Shown one piece after another: positions 6,973 through 38,265 of a stretch of DNA of 64,000 nt. The translations under genes and the position numbers were made by a program. Each line of letters starts with the position of its first letter. Positions within the stretch are counted from its first letter, which is position 1. Source of the stretch: Prochlorococcus marinus XMU1408 (GTDB lineage: Bacteria > Cyanobacteriota > Cyanobacteriia > PCC-6307 > Cyanobiaceae); the NCBI RefSeq assembly GCF_003208055.1, contig NZ_QJUE01000002.1:372001-436000 (forward strand), in the 5' to 3' direction. Below the pieces are notes generated by a model. The model made no database searches. It saw nothing but the letters and a program-made list of their open reading frames with translations, and was not told where the DNA came from.

Positions 6973-9066
6973 ATGCGTCTTAAGAAAAGTAATAATCAAT
7001 CTAAATATATTTTTTGGATTTTAGTTATATTAATATGGATTATATCTACTTTAGTTGATCGAATTTGGTGGAATTTTTATAGTAATACTCCTTCCTGGGA
7101 TCAAGCTGATTATCTTAATAGCGCACTTGATCATGCACGCGCACTTTCTTTTATCGGCGAAGCTGGATCTCTTGACTTTAGATCTGTTCTAGATAAGTCT
7201 CCAAAGATTCCTCCTTTAGCCTCAATTTTTAATGGAGCAGTTATTGCTTTTGCAGGTGATGCTCCTCATGAGGCTGCATGGTCTTTAAGTTTTTGGAATG
7301 GTTTTTTTATTTTCAATATTGCTTCATGGGGACTTTATCTAAGAGGACAAAAGTTCGCATTTTTCGCTGTTCTTATTAGTGTTTGCTCTCCTTTCTTATT
7401 TCATCTAAGAACTGATTATGTATTGGAGTTGCCTCTGATTTCTGCTGTTACTTTTTATTTGTTTCACTTAGGTAGATGGAGCGATAATCATAGGGGAGCT
7501 AAATGGACGCAATTGATAGTTGCTTCAATAGCATGTGCTTCGTCTTTACTAATAAAGCAGAGTGCATTATTAGTTATTATTCCTTCTTTTTTATTTATTT
7601 TTATTCTTTCTTTCAAAAGAGATAGAACATTTAGATTTCAAATTTTATGCTTATTGTTTATTAATTTCTTAGCTATTTTACCTTGGTTTTATCATAATTG
7701 GATAATGATATTAAGTGGGACCTATAGAGCTGTTTTTGAATCAGCAGCTATTGAAGGTGACCCTTCCATCTTTGAGTTAAAAAGTATTTTTTGGTACTTC
7801 CCATATTTGAAAAATCAGTTTGGTAGTATTATTTTCTTTTTTGGCTTATCTGGATTAGTATTTATTCTTTTAACTTATATAAGATCTTTTAAAACTCCAA
7901 TAAAATTCGAAGATTTATTAAATAATAATTATTATTATAAATGGACTTGGATCCTATTTAATTTATTTACTAGCTGGACTTTTACAACTTTTATACCTAA
8001 CAAGGATGAGAGGTATATAGCTTCTGTGATTCCATTAATTATATTATTACTAGCTCTCGGTTTTTGTAAGTGGAGTGATTGGCTAGATTCTTACTTTAGA
8101 TTTAATGGCTTATTATTAATTGCACCTTTAAGCTTCATTTTTTCCGATGCTTTCACTAAGTTTAACTCATTAGAAGGGCAGAAAAATAAATACTATCCTG
8201 TTAAACAAATTGTTTCCATTGTTAAATCAGGTCAAGATAAATATAAAAAAGAAACTATTATTGTTGTTCCAAGCACACCTGATGTTAATCAGCATAATGT
8301 AAGTTATATAGGTAGAATGAAAGGGGGAAATATTTTAGGTAGACAACTTGGACAATCTCTTTTGCATATAGACCCAGTATTAAAATATTCTAACTGGATT
8401 ATTTTGGCTGAAGGAGATCAAGGCTCTGTTTCTAGTAATTCTCTGGCTCTCGATAAATCGATTAGAGATAGTTATCTTTTTAAAAAAGTTCGACAATTTG
8501 ATAGAAAAGAAGGAGGGAGCTTTTCTTTATGGAAAAGAAGTGAAAGATCAAATAATCCCATTGAATTCCATAATAGATTTATTAAACTTGCCAATGTAAT
8601 GGATCAAGGTCCATTAGGCATTAAATTGATTTTTGATGAAATAGCTATAGAACATATGCTTGATGGCCACTTTAAATATCAAAATATAGTTAGAGATAAA
8701 GCCTTGTCAGAATTGAGTTTTAATCCTAAAAATATTGAATCTTTATGGACATTATCTCTTTTGGAGATATTATCAAATAGGCCTTATGAAGCTGATATTT
8801 ATTTAAAGGATTTGGAAATATTGTTACCAAATAATCCATGGCCAAGTGCATACAGAAGTGTTGTTAATTTAGTGTCATGGAATCCTTGGAAGGCATCATT
8901 TATTGCTGAAAAAGCTAACATTAAACATCAGAATTACATTCTAAAGGCCCTCAGTGATATTAGTGCAATTTGTAGTGGATCCTTTTGGCGATTGACTTCT
9001 ACTTTTGAAAGTGTTAACTCAGCCGCAAAAAATATAGAACGAGTTTTAAAACCCACTCCAAAATAG
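6973..9066 (+). CDS. Polytopic membrane glycosyltransferase, GT39/PMT_2-like
   Basis: This 697-residue protein has about ten membrane segments in its first ~400 residues and a soluble C-terminal part. The first outside loop reads NTPSWDQADYLNSALDHAR, an acidic site placed as in lipid-linked sugar transferases of the PMT/ArnT type. Later, FIPNKDERYIASVIPL resembles their second conserved loop. The likely job is moving a sugar from a polyprenyl carrier to lipid, protein or cell-surface polymer. The soluble tail has helical repeats that recall TPR folds. It follows the exported pentapeptide-repeat gene by 8 bases. Confidence 0.75.
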   Translation: MRLKKSNNQSKYIFWILVILIWIISTLVDRIWWNFYSNTPSWDQADYLNSALDHARALSFIGEAGSLDFRSVLDKSPKIPPLASIFNGAVIAFAGDAPHEAAWSLSFWNGFFIFNIASWGLYLRGQKFAFFAVLISVCSPFLFHLRTDYVLELPLISAVTFYLFHLGRWSDNHRGAKWTQLIVASIACASSLLIKQSALLVIIPSFLFIFILSFKRDRTFRFQILCLLFINFLAILPWFYHNWIMILSGTYRAVFESAAIEGDPSIFELKSIFWYFPYLKNQFGSIIFFFGLSGLVFILLTYIRSFKTPIKFEDLLNNNYYYKWTWILFNLFTSWTFTTFIPNKDERYIASVIPLIILLLALGFCKWSDWLDSYFRFNGLLLIAPLSFIFSDAFTKFNSLEGQKNKYYPVKQIVSIVKSGQDKYKKETIIVVPSTPDVNQHNVSYIGRMKGGNILGRQLGQSLLHIDPVLKYSNWIILAEGDQGSVSSNSLALDKSIRDSYLFKKVRQFDRKEGGSFSLWKRSERSNNPIEFHNRFIKLANVMDQGPLGIKLIFDEIAIEHMLDGHFKYQNIVRDKALSELSFNPKNIESLWTLSLLEILSNRPYEADIYLKDLEILLPNNPWPSAYRSVVNLVSWNPWKASFIAEKANIKHQNYILKALSDISAICSGSFWRLTSTFESVNSAAKNIERVLKPTPK

Positions 9067-9103
9067 GTCTTATCTTGAACAATATGAATGTTAACTAATT
9101 CAA

Positions 9104-9274
9104 TTAGAGTTGGTCTCTTTCAAATGTTTTAGTGATTTCTTTTAGAAACTCCACTATTTGTATATTTGTGTAGCCAAGCTCAGTTCTAAGCCCTTTGCAA
9201 GATGAGGTAATCTCTTTCCAAATATCTGCCCTCACAATAGCTTCTCTGTCTTTTAAGTAACGCTCTTCTTTCAT
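9104..9274 (-). CDS. Small hypothetical protein, 56 aa
   Basis: An ATG frame of 56 codons starts MKEERYLKDREAIVRADIW and ends FLKEITKTFERDQL. It is charged, helical and coding-like in composition. No strong ribosome site is visible and I recognise no family. It is convergent with the glycosyltransferase gene. Confidence 0.5.
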   Translation of the reverse strand: MKEERYLKDREAIVRADIWKEITSSCKGLRTELGYTNIQIVEFLKEITKTFERDQL

Positions 9275-9629
9275 TTTGATTTGATTAAGGATTTAGGGTG
9301 GGGTTGAATTTTGTTAAGAAAACAATCAAATAAATCTTTAGCATTACAAGGTTTATCAGATTGTTATTAGATAGTTCTTAAAAATCAAAAACCTATTTTA
9401 AAAAACACCATAACGAAAAAATAAAAAAATCATGAGCATTATATAATTCTTGTTGGCATTAAATATTTGATTTTCTTATGTAAAAAGGTATTAAAAATAA
9501 ATCTTATTAAGACTTTATGGTTAATTGACCATTCGTTTGAATATTTAAAGCTAACTCTAGAAATTAAATTTTTCTTTATTTTATCTATATTCTAATTTTT
9601 AAGGAGAACCATGATTCTCCATGAAGAGA
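9275..9629. other. Gene-free AT-rich stretch
   Basis: I find no ORF or RNA in this interval. A short perfect hairpin (GGAGAA, loop, TTCTCC) lies at 9603-9618, just before the decayed tRNA-Ser half. Confidence 0.5.
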
Positions 9630-9686
9630 GGAGAGTAGGGTGATTAAAGCCCCCCTATAGAATCCCCTATGCTAGTTTTCAAGAAT
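9630..9686 (-). pseudogene. Decayed 3' half of a tRNA-Ser
   Basis: On the + strand this matches the intact tRNA-Ser gene at 9901-9987 from its 3' end (GGAGAGT, then the T-arm region) to the anticodon loop. The best block is an exact 16-base match, ATGCTAGTTTTCAAGA, at 9669-9684. Similarity stops just past the anticodon loop. Several substitutions and a short gap break the T-arm and variable arm, so it cannot be a working tRNA. It has the same orientation as the intact gene and lies about 215 bases downstream of its 3' end. Confidence 0.8.
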
Positions 9687-9900
9687 AGCGATATTTATCT
9701 CATGCCAATGGCTTTCAGCTGTGCTTTGAACAAAGAAGACCTACTTTGCCCGGAATATATTTGTAATCTTTTGTAGAGAAGATTTGTTCTTAATGAAAGA
9801 AAATATTATGTTGTCAAATTTTAGTCAACTTTTGTATTACGGATAACAAATAAAGAGATTAACAATATAATTAAATAATTCTAGCATCCCCGTAATAGAA

Positions 9901-9987
9901 CGGAGAGTGGGGGATTCGAACCCCCGATGGAGTTGCCCCCATGCTAGTTTTCAAGACTAGAGCCATAAACCACTCGACCAACTCTCC
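9901..9987 (-). tRNA. trnS: tRNA-Ser (anticodon UGA)
   Basis: Read on the minus strand, an 87-base class II tRNA runs from GGAGAGTTGGTCGAGTGG to CACTCTCCG. The acceptor stem GGAGAGT pairs with ACTCTCC. The anticodon stem CTAGT/ACTAG encloses the loop CTTGAAA, giving anticodon TGA. It has the long variable arm typical of serine tRNAs and a T-arm with GGTTCGAATCC. CCA is not encoded. Broken copies of its two halves lie on either side. Confidence 0.97.
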
Positions 9988-10081
9988 ACTTCTAATTTTA
10001 CATCATTGGCTTTGGATTTTTTTTAATAAATTTTGAAAAAAGCAAAAATCTATAAGGAGAAAATCTAGTTAATGCAATTGT

Positions 10082-10264
10082 TTAGTCTTGTTCCTCTTCT
10101 TGGTGGTTAAGTTTGAACCAACCTTCTTCTTTCATTCCTCTTCTAATAGCAGTAAAAAATGCTCCAAGGAAAAAAGAGCCTACCCCAGCAAAAATTGCCA
10201 GAGTTAATAAAGGCTTAACTCCTGTTACAGCTGTACTTTGAAGGGCAGGATCTAACGGATCCAT
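10082..10264 (-). CDS. Small single-pass membrane protein, 60 aa
   Basis: The frame starts MDPLDPALQSTAVTG, has one membrane segment at about residues 18-40 (LLTLAIFAGVGSFFLGAFF) and a basic then acidic tail (RRGMKEEGWFKLNHQEEEQD). The size and single helix resemble small photosynthetic-membrane subunits, but I cannot assign it to one. It is followed 15 bases upstream by another small minus-strand gene, possibly one transcript. Confidence 0.7.
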   Translation of the reverse strand: MDPLDPALQSTAVTGVKPLLTLAIFAGVGSFFLGAFFTAIRRGMKEEGWFKLNHQEEEQD

Positions 10265-10279
10265 TAAAGCTTTGTTTTA

Positions 10280-10441
10280 TTAGTCTTCATAAACTTTGCA
10301 TGTTAAAGAAGTTGGGTGGATTTCACATTCTGCTTTCCAAAAATCTTCTCTTGTCTCAGCAGGAACTTTATAATTGAAATCATGCATTATTCGAATATCA
10401 CTCAACGCATTTTTGATAAAAAATGGAGTTCTTAGCTTCAT
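10280..10441 (-). CDS. Small hypothetical protein, 53 aa
   Basis: The ATG is preceded by a near-perfect AGGAGG three bases upstream. The protein begins MKLRTPFFIKNALSDIRIMH and ends CEIHPTSLTCKVYED, with two cysteines (39 and 48). No family is recognised. The strong ribosome site makes translation likely. Confidence 0.65.
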   Translation of the reverse strand: MKLRTPFFIKNALSDIRIMHDFNYKVPAETREDFWKAECEIHPTSLTCKVYED

Positions 10442-10531
10442 AAACCTCCTATTCGGATGATTATGTTCTACTTGATTCCTTGTGATTTAAACACCCCGGC
10501 TTTTACTCAAGTACTACTTACTAGTTATTCG

Positions 10532-10583
10532 ATATCTAATTTAAAAAGGGCTGACCTTAGTCAGCCCTTTTTAAATTAGATAT
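10532..10583. terminator. Very long bidirectional hairpin terminator
   Basis: This is a perfect 24-bp inverted repeat with a 4-base loop. The GC core GGGCTGAC/GTCAGCCC is flanked by A and T runs and then by further paired bases (ATATCTAATTT). It lies just past the stop of the 10610-10774 minus-strand gene and can work in both directions. Its core is repeated in the terminator at 11878. Confidence 0.85.
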
Positions 10584-10609
10584 AAATCAGCAGCCAATTC
10601 AATTCTGAA

Positions 10610-10774
10610 TTAAGAATCCATTGCTGCAACCTCTTCTTGAGCTTGCTTTTGTCTCCCTAGAAAAACTGAAGTTTTGTAAGAAGTAAATACTCCTTTCTTA
10701 AATGTTGCAAGTTGAGCTTTGTGTAGTCTTTTTGCTTTTAAGACTCTTTTTTTAGTTAGTACTAGGTTGTTCAT
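10610..10774 (-). CDS. Small basic hypothetical protein, 54 aa
   Basis: The frame begins MNNLVLTKKRVLKAKRLHKA and ends QEEVAAMDS. The N-terminal two thirds is rich in Lys/Arg and the tail is acidic. AAAGG precedes the ATG. No family is recognised; the charge pattern would suit RNA or ribosome contact, which is only a guess. The long hairpin terminator follows. Confidence 0.6.
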   Translation of the reverse strand: MNNLVLTKKRVLKAKRLHKAQLATFKKGVFTSYKTSVFLGRQKQAQEEVAAMDS

Positions 10775-10995
10775 GACCTTTTTAATTACTGGAAATCCCG
10801 TTCCCTACTTCCATGTAATGCACTCCAAATAGATGGAGCGAACGTACATTTAATTTAGCAAGCCAACCAGAACAACCGAAATGAAATTCAAGTACGGTTT
10901 CTTAGAAAGTCATCAATAAAACTGTCCTTAAGCACCCGAACTGGTTAGCCCTATCTAAACCGAACTTCATTAAATTAAATCTTCTTATGTTTTTT

Positions 10996-11337
10996 TCATT
11001 GGTGACCGGAATGTTCAAACTCTGTTTCATCGAAAAGCTTACTTCCTCTATATAAAATAACTTCCATTAATAATTCCTCAGCAGCTAAGTTTCTAGCTCT
11101 TTTCTGCATACCTGCGCTAATTTTGCATCAGGTCCATTTGATGCAGCTAAATCAGTAATTGAATCCAATTAAGTAATCAACGAGGGAACAATTTTTGCAA
11201 GCTTGGCCATACCTTCAATATTGTTCATTGGCTTTTCAACAATCCTTGTAAATAAACTTCGCCAGTGAATGTAATGACTATCTCCACTTCAGCTAAATCA
11301 AATAAGAAATCATGGTTCTGACCTGGTGAGATTATTG
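10996..11337 (-). pseudogene. Decayed protein gene with two frameshifts and a nonsense codon
   Basis: Three coding-like segments line up in different frames. The first is ISPGQNHDFLFDLAEVEIV to QGLLKS. The second is PMNNIEGMAKLAKIVPSLIT, then a TAA at 11169-11171, then LDSITDLAASNGPDAKLAQV. The third is RARNLAAEELLMEVILYRG to DETEFEHSGHQ and a stop. One missing base near 11228 and one near 11101 would rejoin them. There is no start codon at the 5' end. I do not recognise the parent family. It lies between the intact tRNA-Ser and the 5' tRNA half. Confidence 0.65.
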
Positions 11338-11480
11338 GTTAGACTTTGTTTGATCTATATGCTCTTTACTAAGCCATATGCCCAACGTGCAAGTATTTTC
11401 AGCAGTGCATGATTCGATAGTCTTTTAATACTTAAAAGTTTCTCATAATATGTAATGCTTTAGGTTCTTGTATATTATTG

Positions 11481-11828
11481 ATGACCTCTAATTTTTATAT
11501 CGTTCATCACGAATTTAGAGCTGGTACTTCATCTAAGTGGTGGGAAACTGCTTATGCAGCTATGGCACCTGGCGGTGGATGGGATGAGGCTGTAGCAGCA
11601 AATAAAGAAAAAGGTTTTTACAACCACTCTGCTAATGCTGTGACTTCTGAAGGCCCTGTTTACTGTATTTGGGAAACTAAGGAGAATATTACGGTAGAAG
11701 AATTTCAGGAATTCATTGATGGTCCGACAGGTCCTGGATTTGGTCTGAACGCATTAATGAATATCTGCAAACCAATAGATACATCATTAATGAACGGACA
11801 AACTCCATACCCAAGAGTTTTCTCTTGA
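11481..11828 (+). CDS. Hypothetical protein, 115 aa
   Basis: The protein begins MTSNFYIVHHEFRAGTSSKW and contains APGGGWDEAVAANKEKGFYN and VYCIWETKENITVEEFQEFI. The layout, a short alpha/beta sequence with aromatic and Trp residues, resembles dimeric alpha/beta-barrel (ABM/EthD-like) proteins, but this is only a shape argument. ATG at 11481 is preferred over the TTG one codon earlier. A terminator follows. Confidence 0.75.
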   Translation: MTSNFYIVHHEFRAGTSSKWWETAYAAMAPGGGWDEAVAANKEKGFYNHSANAVTSEGPVYCIWETKENITVEEFQEFIDGPTGPGFGLNALMNICKPIDTSLMNGQTPYPRVFS

Positions 11829-11877
11829 AACAGTTAAATTAGAGTTGGTTGACAGCCGATTGTTATCGGAAAGAAAA

Positions 11878-11902
11878 GGGCTGACTTTGTTCAGCCTTTT
11901 TT
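11878..11902 (+). terminator. Rho-independent terminator
   Basis: GGCTGA and TCAGCC form a stem around a CTTTGT loop, followed by six T. It ends the 11481-11828 gene. The core is nearly the same as that of the 10532 terminator. Confidence 0.85.
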
Positions 11903-12061
11903 ACGTTGCTAGTCTTCATGACCGATATTGACCACTTTTTTGAAAGTTGCTCATTTTATTATAAAAAACTTTTGAGTATTAAGAATTAAATTATGGTGCT
12001 ATAGAAAATAAATAAAGCTAGTTATATCAATAAAATTACTATAATTATTATTGTAATTAAG

Positions 12062-12107
12062 GCTTATTTTCAAGACTAGAGCAATAAACCACTTGACCAA
12101 CTATCCA
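12062..12107 (-). pseudogene. Decayed 5' half of a tRNA-Ser
   Basis: This matches 9943-9988 of the intact tRNA-Ser region at 41 of 46 bases by eye, covering the anticodon loop, anticodon stem, D-arm and 5' acceptor strand. Similarity stops at the anticodon stem, the same place where the 9630 half ends. It has the same orientation as the intact gene. The 3' half is absent here, so it is not functional. Confidence 0.82.
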
Positions 12108-12304: not shown

Positions 12305-12499
12305 ATGGCAAGCAACAAGAGCCCACAATCTCGTTTCCTTGGAGACCTTCCAATGGAGGGTGGTATTAGTCAAAAGGAAAAATACCGTTACGTTGCTCAC
12401 TTGATGTTTTTTATAGGATGCGCTCTATTTTCTTTTGGGATTTGGGCTCTATCAGGTTTTACTGCTTCAAGCGGTTCAACTGGACCATTCCCTTTCTAA
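12305..12499 (+). CDS. Small membrane protein, 64 aa
   Basis: A polar N-terminus (MASNKSPQSRFLGDLPMEGG) is followed by one or two membrane segments (YVAHLMFFIGCALFSFGIWA) and a Ser/Gly-rich tail ending in PFPF. I recognise no named family. The general plan, basic soluble head and GxW-type helix, is shared with the 46745 gene. Confidence 0.72.
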   Translation: MASNKSPQSRFLGDLPMEGGISQKEKYRYVAHLMFFIGCALFSFGIWALSGFTASSGSTGPFPF

Positions 12500-38060: not shown

Positions 38061-38084
38061 TGCTTTTTGTTAGATTGTTTTAGT

Positions 38085-38265
38085 ACTGCTTTGTTGGTAA
38101 GGCCTTTTCAAGTGCTCTGATCTGACTCTCTTTCGATTTGGGGAAGCTGTCGTGAAAGTAACGTATACCGGCTTGTTCTGGAAACGAAGCTTCACTTTGA
38201 ATCCCCCTCTGGTTCTTCCAGGTCGATGCTTCTTGGGTTTTACGGCTAAGTGGTACTAACTTTTA
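38085..38265 (+). ncRNA. ssrS: 6S RNA
   Basis: The stretch after purK is GC-richer than the flanks and holds several pairing blocks (for example GGGGAAGC with a later GAAGCTTC...CCCC set, and AAAGT with ACTTT). In cyanobacteria, including Prochlorococcus, 6S RNA is encoded just downstream of purK; it binds RNA polymerase by mimicking an open promoter. Ends are estimated from the loss of structure into AT-rich DNA. No ORF explains the region. Confidence 0.68.

Follow-up and report, generated by a model that had tools for sequence, protein, structure and literature searches.

A probable decayed integrative element that splits a tRNA-Ser(UGA) gene of Prochlorococcus marinus and carries an intact copy

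Transfer RNA (tRNA) genes are usually regarded as landing sites that are rebuilt by integration. In the part of the Islander work drawn on here, the attP site of tRNA islands contains a tRNA fragment that rebuilds the target, and one fragment is displaced; 3760 of the 3919 islands have a 3′ fragment and 159 of 3919 a 5′ fragment (PMC4383910). Among integrative and conjugative elements (ICEs), an excerpt on ICEMh1PM22 describes one full-length and two disrupted copies of tRNA-Leu (PMC6861422). Passages from this and another paper also describe tRNA-Leu junctions as ordinary reconstitution, so that the precedent is not uniform (PMC6861422, PMC4908127). For picocyanobacteria, the available excerpts describe variable islands in which a tyrosine integrase family lies next to tRNA-Phe or tRNA-Cys (PMC10187409), and mention a Synechococcus RS9917 island bounded by tRNA-Ser as well as pseudo-tRNA-Met copies of another genome, close to a presumed phage site (PMC2784084). 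The locus described here is from Prochlorococcus marinus XMU1408 (G000 in the comparisons below) and lies in a stretch of 64,000 nucleotides (contig NZ_QJUE01000002.1, positions 372,001 to 436,000), hereafter called the window, whose own numbering is used throughout. It has an intact tRNA-Ser(UGA) gene standing between two separated halves of a second one, and the insert between these halves is very probably a decayed integrative element that split the resident gene and brought a replacement copy.

On the minus strand, the order from 5′ to 3′ is a 5′ half, about 2.1 kb of cargo, the intact tRNA-Ser(UGA), a spacer of 212 bp, and a 3′ half; the insert between the halves is about 2.39 kb. The intact gene, read as element-borne, is at 9901–9987 (minus strand; ARAGORN, and Rfam with 54.2 bits). 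This gene was used as BLASTN query against 35 loci, those of the window end and of 34 relatives. It detects the decayed 5′ half of the resident gene (nt 1–40) at the left junction, 12067–12106, with 92.5% identity and an E value of 6.6e-11, and the decayed 3′ half (nt 28–86) at the right junction, 9630–9688, with 78.7% identity and an E value of 5.1e-6. Both halves are on the minus strand, like the intact gene, and their overlap is confined to the anticodon arm. An initial annotation made from the letters of the window had proposed just this, two tRNA-Ser halves of the same orientation, broken at the anticodon region, around an intact tRNA-Ser, and ARAGORN, Rfam, BLASTN and the position compared with relatives all agree with it; both of its halves were found again, although the match of the 5′ half stops at 12067 and not at 12062. 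The right end of the element is the spacer from the intact tRNA to the 3′ half (9689–9900, minus strand; alignment, DNA search and motif scan), and the left end is the region beside the 5′ half (11910–12066, minus strand; alignments), where the inner limit is approximate. Two conserved neighbours outside the element serve as anchors, hp56 on the 3′ side of the tRNA (9104–9274, minus strand) and hp64 on its 5′ side (12305–12499, plus strand). The 5′ half in the window is 199 bp from hp64, and in empty sites the tRNA 5′ end is 199–204 bp from hp64; the 3′ half is 355 bp from hp56, compared to 321–337 bp for the tRNA 3′ end of empty sites. The halves are thus at the ancestral position of the tRNA in relatives, which argues against a chance match. 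Three other fetched tRNA-Ser matches of this genome have the anticodons GGA, GCU and CGA (ARAGORN), so the gene with the UGA anticodon was found only once in it. A tRNA-Ser(UGA) is needed for reading UCA codons.

The 34 relatives are from the same genus (g1), and their loci were oriented with the window. Six of the 41 genomes of the genus have no full-length tRNA-Ser(UGA) match and were excluded (G010, G012, G017, G029, G034 and G035; completeness 51–87%). Seven of the 35 loci have a 5′ half, four have a right scar only, and 10 are unclassified (G008, G014, G015, G016, G025, G026, G038, G039, G040, and G011, where the hp56 side is cut off). The remaining 14 are empty and carry, at the same position, the uninterrupted tRNA-Ser that the initial annotation had suggested looking for. 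The 5′ half is 199–213 bp from hp64 in the window, G003, G013, G022, G031, G032 and G037, and a clear 3′ half is found 202–216 bp beyond the intact gene in five of these seven (G000, G003, G022, G031 and G037). G003, G013, G022 and G031 have part of their cargo in common with the window, and the cargo is different in G032 and G037, whose inserts contain a DUF2079 membrane protein and a TPR protein, respectively. The best pair for comparison, the sisters G036 (empty) and G037 (filled), differs by an insertion of 4640 bp. The outer flanks of this pair are native, with 180 of 190 positions identical upstream of the 5′ half and 274 of 296 downstream of the 3′ half; the flanks of the intact copy match over only 9 of 9 positions upstream and 25 of 30 downstream, and the rest is foreign. 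Together with the tRNA type of genome G186, described below, these flanks support what the initial annotation called the simplest reading: as far as sequence comparison can tell, the resident tRNA-Ser is split by insertion of DNA that holds its own intact copy. On a quick NrdJ and RF3 tree of 33 rows (G011 labelled as empty, G009, which is empty, and G039 left out), the filled genomes are scattered, and a single clade of all seven is rejected by the approximately unbiased test (p-AU 3.5e-46). This means several gains or losses, or exchange at the locus. The unclassified locus of G008 (L010) has insertions on both sides of its tRNA-Ser(UGA), with spacings of 3.0 and 4.5 kb and no clear tRNA halves, and a 45% relative of the 697-aa neighbour is found there on the other side.

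A complete element is found in another genus, g11. In G211 it spans 9.1 kb from the 5′ half to the 3′ half, with a spacer of 212 bp, and it contains an integrase beside the left end that is 66% identical to an integrase of G032 (see below), a second small tyrosine recombinase, a Prim-Pol/PriCT_2/AAA_25 protein, an Arc-like protein, an HTH_17 protein and the intact tRNA. The G211 halves are closer to the native genes of G050 and G222 than to their own intact copy (86 vs 77; 110 vs 90), and the intact copy agrees with this native type in 82 of 87 positions. In G186, the only tRNA-Ser(UGA) found intact is of a different type from both halves. It is identical to the carried copy of G211 in 87 of 87 positions, and to the GGAGGGG type, present in G200, G104 and G131, in 70–73 of 87. 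The G186 halves are of this GGAGGGG type; the 5′ half scores 75 against it and 64 against its own intact copy, and the 3′ half scores 74–79 and 28. Over 2289 bp, tRNA and ends included, the inserts of G186 and G171 are 90% identical. The 1500-bp flank upstream of the G186 5′ half matches 0 of 7 loci, and the downstream flank matches only 290 bp of G171, at 71%. G186 is the decisive case: since its halves are of one type and its intact copy of another, that of G211, the tRNA travels with the element and can take the place of a different resident gene. Read from the tRNA types, the comparison demonstrates that the intact copies of G186 and G211 are of foreign origin. Integrase fragments are present in G171 and G186. 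A search of 300 genomes of the family for the right end of G211 gave matches in at least 6 of 300, a lower bound in which two candidates per genome were scored among the matches listed and no g1 genome was recovered. Filled sites among these are G171, G186 and G211, and in G050, G105 and G222 the match is limited to the tRNA-derived end.

The ends of the element are conserved as well. The window spacer is homologous to those of G003, G013, G022, G031 and G037 by alignment (a DNA search gives 75% between G000 and the G037 spacer), and the first spacer bases resemble the native 3′ flank of the tRNA. Spacers measure 202–216 bp in five g1 genomes, 212 bp in G211 and 211 bp in G171; they are shorter in the genomes with a right scar only (185–192 bp) and in G186 (190 bp). 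The left end of the window can be aligned with those of G003, G022, G037, G032, G211, G171 and G186. For G000 and G013 this homology is seen in the alignment only, and the G037 left end as DNA search query found no match in G000, where the left end is too diverged. Fresher copies have a 15-bp motif, GGTCAACTTTCGGTC, in opposite orientation at both ends. The left one lies 182–185 bp after the start of the 5′ half in G003, G022, G032, G037, G211, G171 and G186; the right one lies 75 bp after the intact tRNA in G013, G022, G031 and G037 of genus g1, and 64 bp after it in G211 and G171 of genus g11. Reckoned from the two anticodons, the distances are about 153 bp on the left and 141–152 bp on the right. 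With up to two mismatches allowed, all copies of the motif in the 35 g1 loci and the 9 g11 loci are at element ends, and with three mismatches there are scattered matches in G003, G004, G021, G033 and G036. Elsewhere it is found, with 1–2 mismatches, at the start of integrase genes beside tRNA-Arg (L038/L068, L086) and beside tRNA-Ser (L089). The pair resembles arm-type integrase sites and may act as such.

The integrase of G032, a tyrosine recombinase of 405 aa beside the left end, is a PHROG integrase, and its match to Pfam Phage_integrase is below the cut-off. It has matches in 35 of the 41 genomes of the genus (E ≤ 0.001), which are weak (about 25%) except in G032, G030 and G039. In the window genome there is a single match of 23% (C2:247574–248722), outside the window, and the four open reading frames (ORFs) of the insert that were scanned have no Pfam or NCBIfam match. 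This fits the earlier view of the enclosed DNA as an old remnant without an integrase; the relatives that have one are G032 and G211. A scan of genome contigs with the G032 integrase recovered one locus, its own. In the wider family, 12 of 201 genomes have relatives of it at E ≤ 1e-25. Nine of 12 fetched integrase loci contain tRNA-Ser(UGA) and three contain tRNA-Arg, which in L092 is distant from a partial integrase gene; in G030 and G039 the integrase is beside tRNA-Arg(CCT). With respect to tRNA-Ser, the integrase is downstream in L084, L088, L089 and L090, upstream in L083, L085 and L093, and on both sides in L087. By these associations the integrase family is tied to tRNA-Ser(UGA) and tRNA-Arg, in several layouts. 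In L087 (G092, 8292–10995), two tyrosine integrases of the same family flank the tRNA-Ser(UGA) and diverge from it. A comparison of the G211 integrase with phage records gave no match, and the G211 primase had two weak partial matches there, to Synechococcus phages S-EIVl and S-LBS1.

A number of observations weigh against an element of this kind at the window. The G000 locus has no copy of GGTCAACTTTCGGTC within three mismatches, the motif having decayed there, and the window is assigned to the element by its halves, its ends and its relatives, with neither an integrase nor a motif copy of its own found. Four genomes have the right-side scar alone, which is weak in part (G020, G021, G024 and G027), G032 has neither 3′ half nor spacer, and G013 has the spacer and no recognisable 3′ half; these departures from the full layout need later loss. 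The intact tRNA sequence is identical in 33 of the 35 g1 loci, filled or empty, and the filled G037 shares its one variant base with the empty G036. A foreign origin is therefore invisible in g1, and one has to assume gene conversion or local transfer. The intact copy of G171 is the native type of G050 and G222, and as its halves are of the same type, G171 is silent on the origin of the copy. Two loci with an integrase of the same family have a different layout. In G059 (L083) the integrase is beside the intact tRNA-Ser(UGA), and only a 5′ half is present, at a distance of 8.8 kb upstream; in G042 (L091) a tRNA-Arg(CCT) has a perfect 5′ half (nt 1–42) 9.1 kb upstream and the integrase adjoining the intact gene, which looks like an island that replaced the 5′ half of its target. 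Finally, four pattern scans of viral contigs, with both integrases (of G032 and of G211), the primase of G211 and a stretch of 53 tRNA bases as queries, gave no relative: the pattern matches in two of the scans (7 and 8 stretches) encoded none, and the other two scans were empty.

Some of these points would be natural under the alternative raised in the initial annotation, two nested integrations, in which one element replaced the 3′ half and another the 5′ half, both displaced halves were left behind, and the elements eroded. In its favour, single scars of both kinds exist, the right one alone in four genomes and the left one alone in G032. It would also accommodate an integrase family that is found downstream, upstream or on both sides of tRNA-Ser, the 5′ half and integrase beside an intact tRNA in G059 and G042, and the spacer of the right-scar genomes, which starts like the native 3′ flank. 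Against it, the spacer length stays nearly constant in five g1 genomes and in G211 and G171 despite differing cargo, and the motif pair is about symmetric around both junctions. Also against it, tRNA and both ends form a single 90%-identical unit in G186 and G171, and the integrase of G032 and G211 is at the 5′ half and not at the intact tRNA. On these four grounds nested double integration was rejected as the main explanation; it is unlikely for the window, and much less likely than a single insertion even if it is conceivable for individual genomes. Still more improbable is that the tRNA-Ser locus was duplicated locally or underwent homologous recombination, and that its outer copies decayed to halves by chance. 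It is true that tRNA genes can duplicate and that the g1 copies are nearly identical, but in every filled genome the recognisable halves stop in or close to the anticodon arm, most of the sequence flanking the intact copy is foreign, the cargo varies from genome to genome, and the homologous ends have a motif in common; the G186 halves, being of another tRNA type, contradict it, and it was rejected. That the halves match by chance, which the initial annotation had named as grounds for refutation, or are stray sequence resembling a tRNA, is barely credible and was rejected. The 3′ half in the window is only 79% identical, which would favour it, but the E values and the agreement with the ancestral position speak against it, and it is contradicted by G037, which has nearly perfect halves at these same positions.

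For a single element that splits its target, the following course of events is proposed. A tyrosine integrase, not found in the window and present in relatives, would cause recombination between the element, in circular form, and the resident tRNA-Ser(UGA) at its anticodon arm, and the G186 junctions, in our reading, narrow the recombination core to about TCTTGAAA, the anticodon loop. As the attachment site of the element would share only about the anticodon arm with the target, both halves would be orphaned and the gene would not be rebuilt. Its function would be supplied by the complete tRNA-Ser(UGA) that the element carries with its own upstream region, some 212 bp inside the right end. Excision would restore the resident gene for as long as neither half decays. 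Both have decayed in the window, and the carried copy should therefore be indispensable and permanent. Single scars could come from recombination between direct repeats, either the 5′ half with the intact gene or the intact gene with the 3′ half. The comparison of genomes demonstrates insertion into an intact tRNA, conserved ends, and an integrase beside the left end in two relatives, at the level of sequence; this integrase of G032 and G211 presumably performs the integration, and the carried tRNA is presumably expressed and essential.

The balance tips slightly towards an element that holds an essential tRNA hostage, reversibly while the halves are intact, and after their decay with the locus fixed and the tRNA exchanged between lineages. 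If this is true, a core tRNA of marine picocyanobacteria would be turned over horizontally at the tRNA-Ser(UGA) locus in repeated rounds. Landing here breaks the gene and the element brings a copy, so a presumably essential tRNA can move horizontally and replace the resident one, as in G186. Such loci offer a test, provided by nature, of the reason for which elements carry tRNA genes, and they account for the fragments of tRNA near this one. Programs that look for islands with a single displaced fragment could misread them.

The cargo of the window insert is small. Two ORFs of 60 aa (10082–10264) and 53 aa (10280–10441), both on the minus strand, have homologs in the inserts of G003, G013 and G031. 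A glutamine-II riboswitch aptamer (10790–10847, minus strand; Rfam RF01704, 41.1 bits, above gathering) is followed downstream by an ORF of 54 aa (10610–10774, minus strand), and together they are possibly a nitrogen-sensing cargo module. An ORF of 116 aa is on the plus strand (11478–11828). These are the four ORFs without a Pfam or NCBIfam match. The 54-aa ORF has matches in 20 of the 41 genomes of the genus, four of them at this locus (G000, G003, G013 and G031), and the 116-aa ORF in 21 of 41, five of them at this locus (the same four and G022). As their relatives are mostly away from the locus, both are accessory genes found at several sites. Two hairpins in the insert (10541–10579 and 11879–11905), read from the sequence, have T runs after stems that are almost identical (GGCTGAC/GTCAGCC), and had been annotated as twin terminators. 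A terminator scan of the insert lists one of them (11879–11896) and not the other, together with a candidate at 10182–10204; these two finds compare with 1.7 expected by shuffling. Farther away, the window contains a 6S RNA (38080–38260, plus strand; Rfam RF00013, 90.7 bits).

How does this layout compare with known systems? The G211 element recalls phage satellites (PICI, PLE, PICMI and VEIME) by its integrase and its Prim-Pol/PriCT_2/AAA_25, HTH_17 and Arc-like proteins. The HTH_17 protein is ambiguous, however, being weakly Cox-like by Pfam and having a terminase small subunit as best PHROG match (7.3e-6), no helper is known for the G211 element, and its integrase is without a match among phage records. 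In the four scanned ORFs of the window insert, no integrase, primase or regulator gene of satellite type was recognised. The tRNA islands of Islander have a tyrosine integrase (found for the present element in relatives and not in the window), and share an anticodon-centred crossover and a displaced tRNA fragment with the present element, but in the part of that source used here they rebuild the target (PMC4383910), whereas the present target stays broken, with both of its halves displaced. Tycheposons, in the excerpt available, are Prochlorococcus cargo islands at tRNA genes, of 4–200 kb and with a tyrosine recombinase (PMC10872708). The window insert, bordered by tRNA-Ser(UGA) halves, is only about 2.39 kb and no recombinase was found in it, while the 9.1-kb G211 element has both the size and the recombinase of a tycheposon as given there; the earlier label of tycheposon-like is plausible for the window insert. 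For other picocyanobacterial tRNA islands, the portions of the papers at hand describe no split tRNA with a carried intact copy (PMC10187409, PMC2784084).

The closest mechanism is that of the ICEPmu1-type elements of Pasteurellaceae (PMC6028734, PMC6861422). According to the excerpts on these ICEPmu1/ICEMh1-type ICEs, they split a tRNA-Leu at both ends and carry an intact copy, and both features are found here. Those ICEs are large, conjugative and from another phylum, whereas the present inserts are about 2.4–9 kb and the target is a tRNA-Ser(UGA), of which one was found in G000. No conjugation genes were detected when 10 ORFs of the G211 element and four of the window insert were scanned with Pfam. 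The layout is not claimed to be unpublished in cyanobacteria. It is best seen as a variation on the Pasteurellaceae ICE precedent, and, judged from the genomes compared, as a clear example from nature of a tRNA gene that was replaced horizontally.

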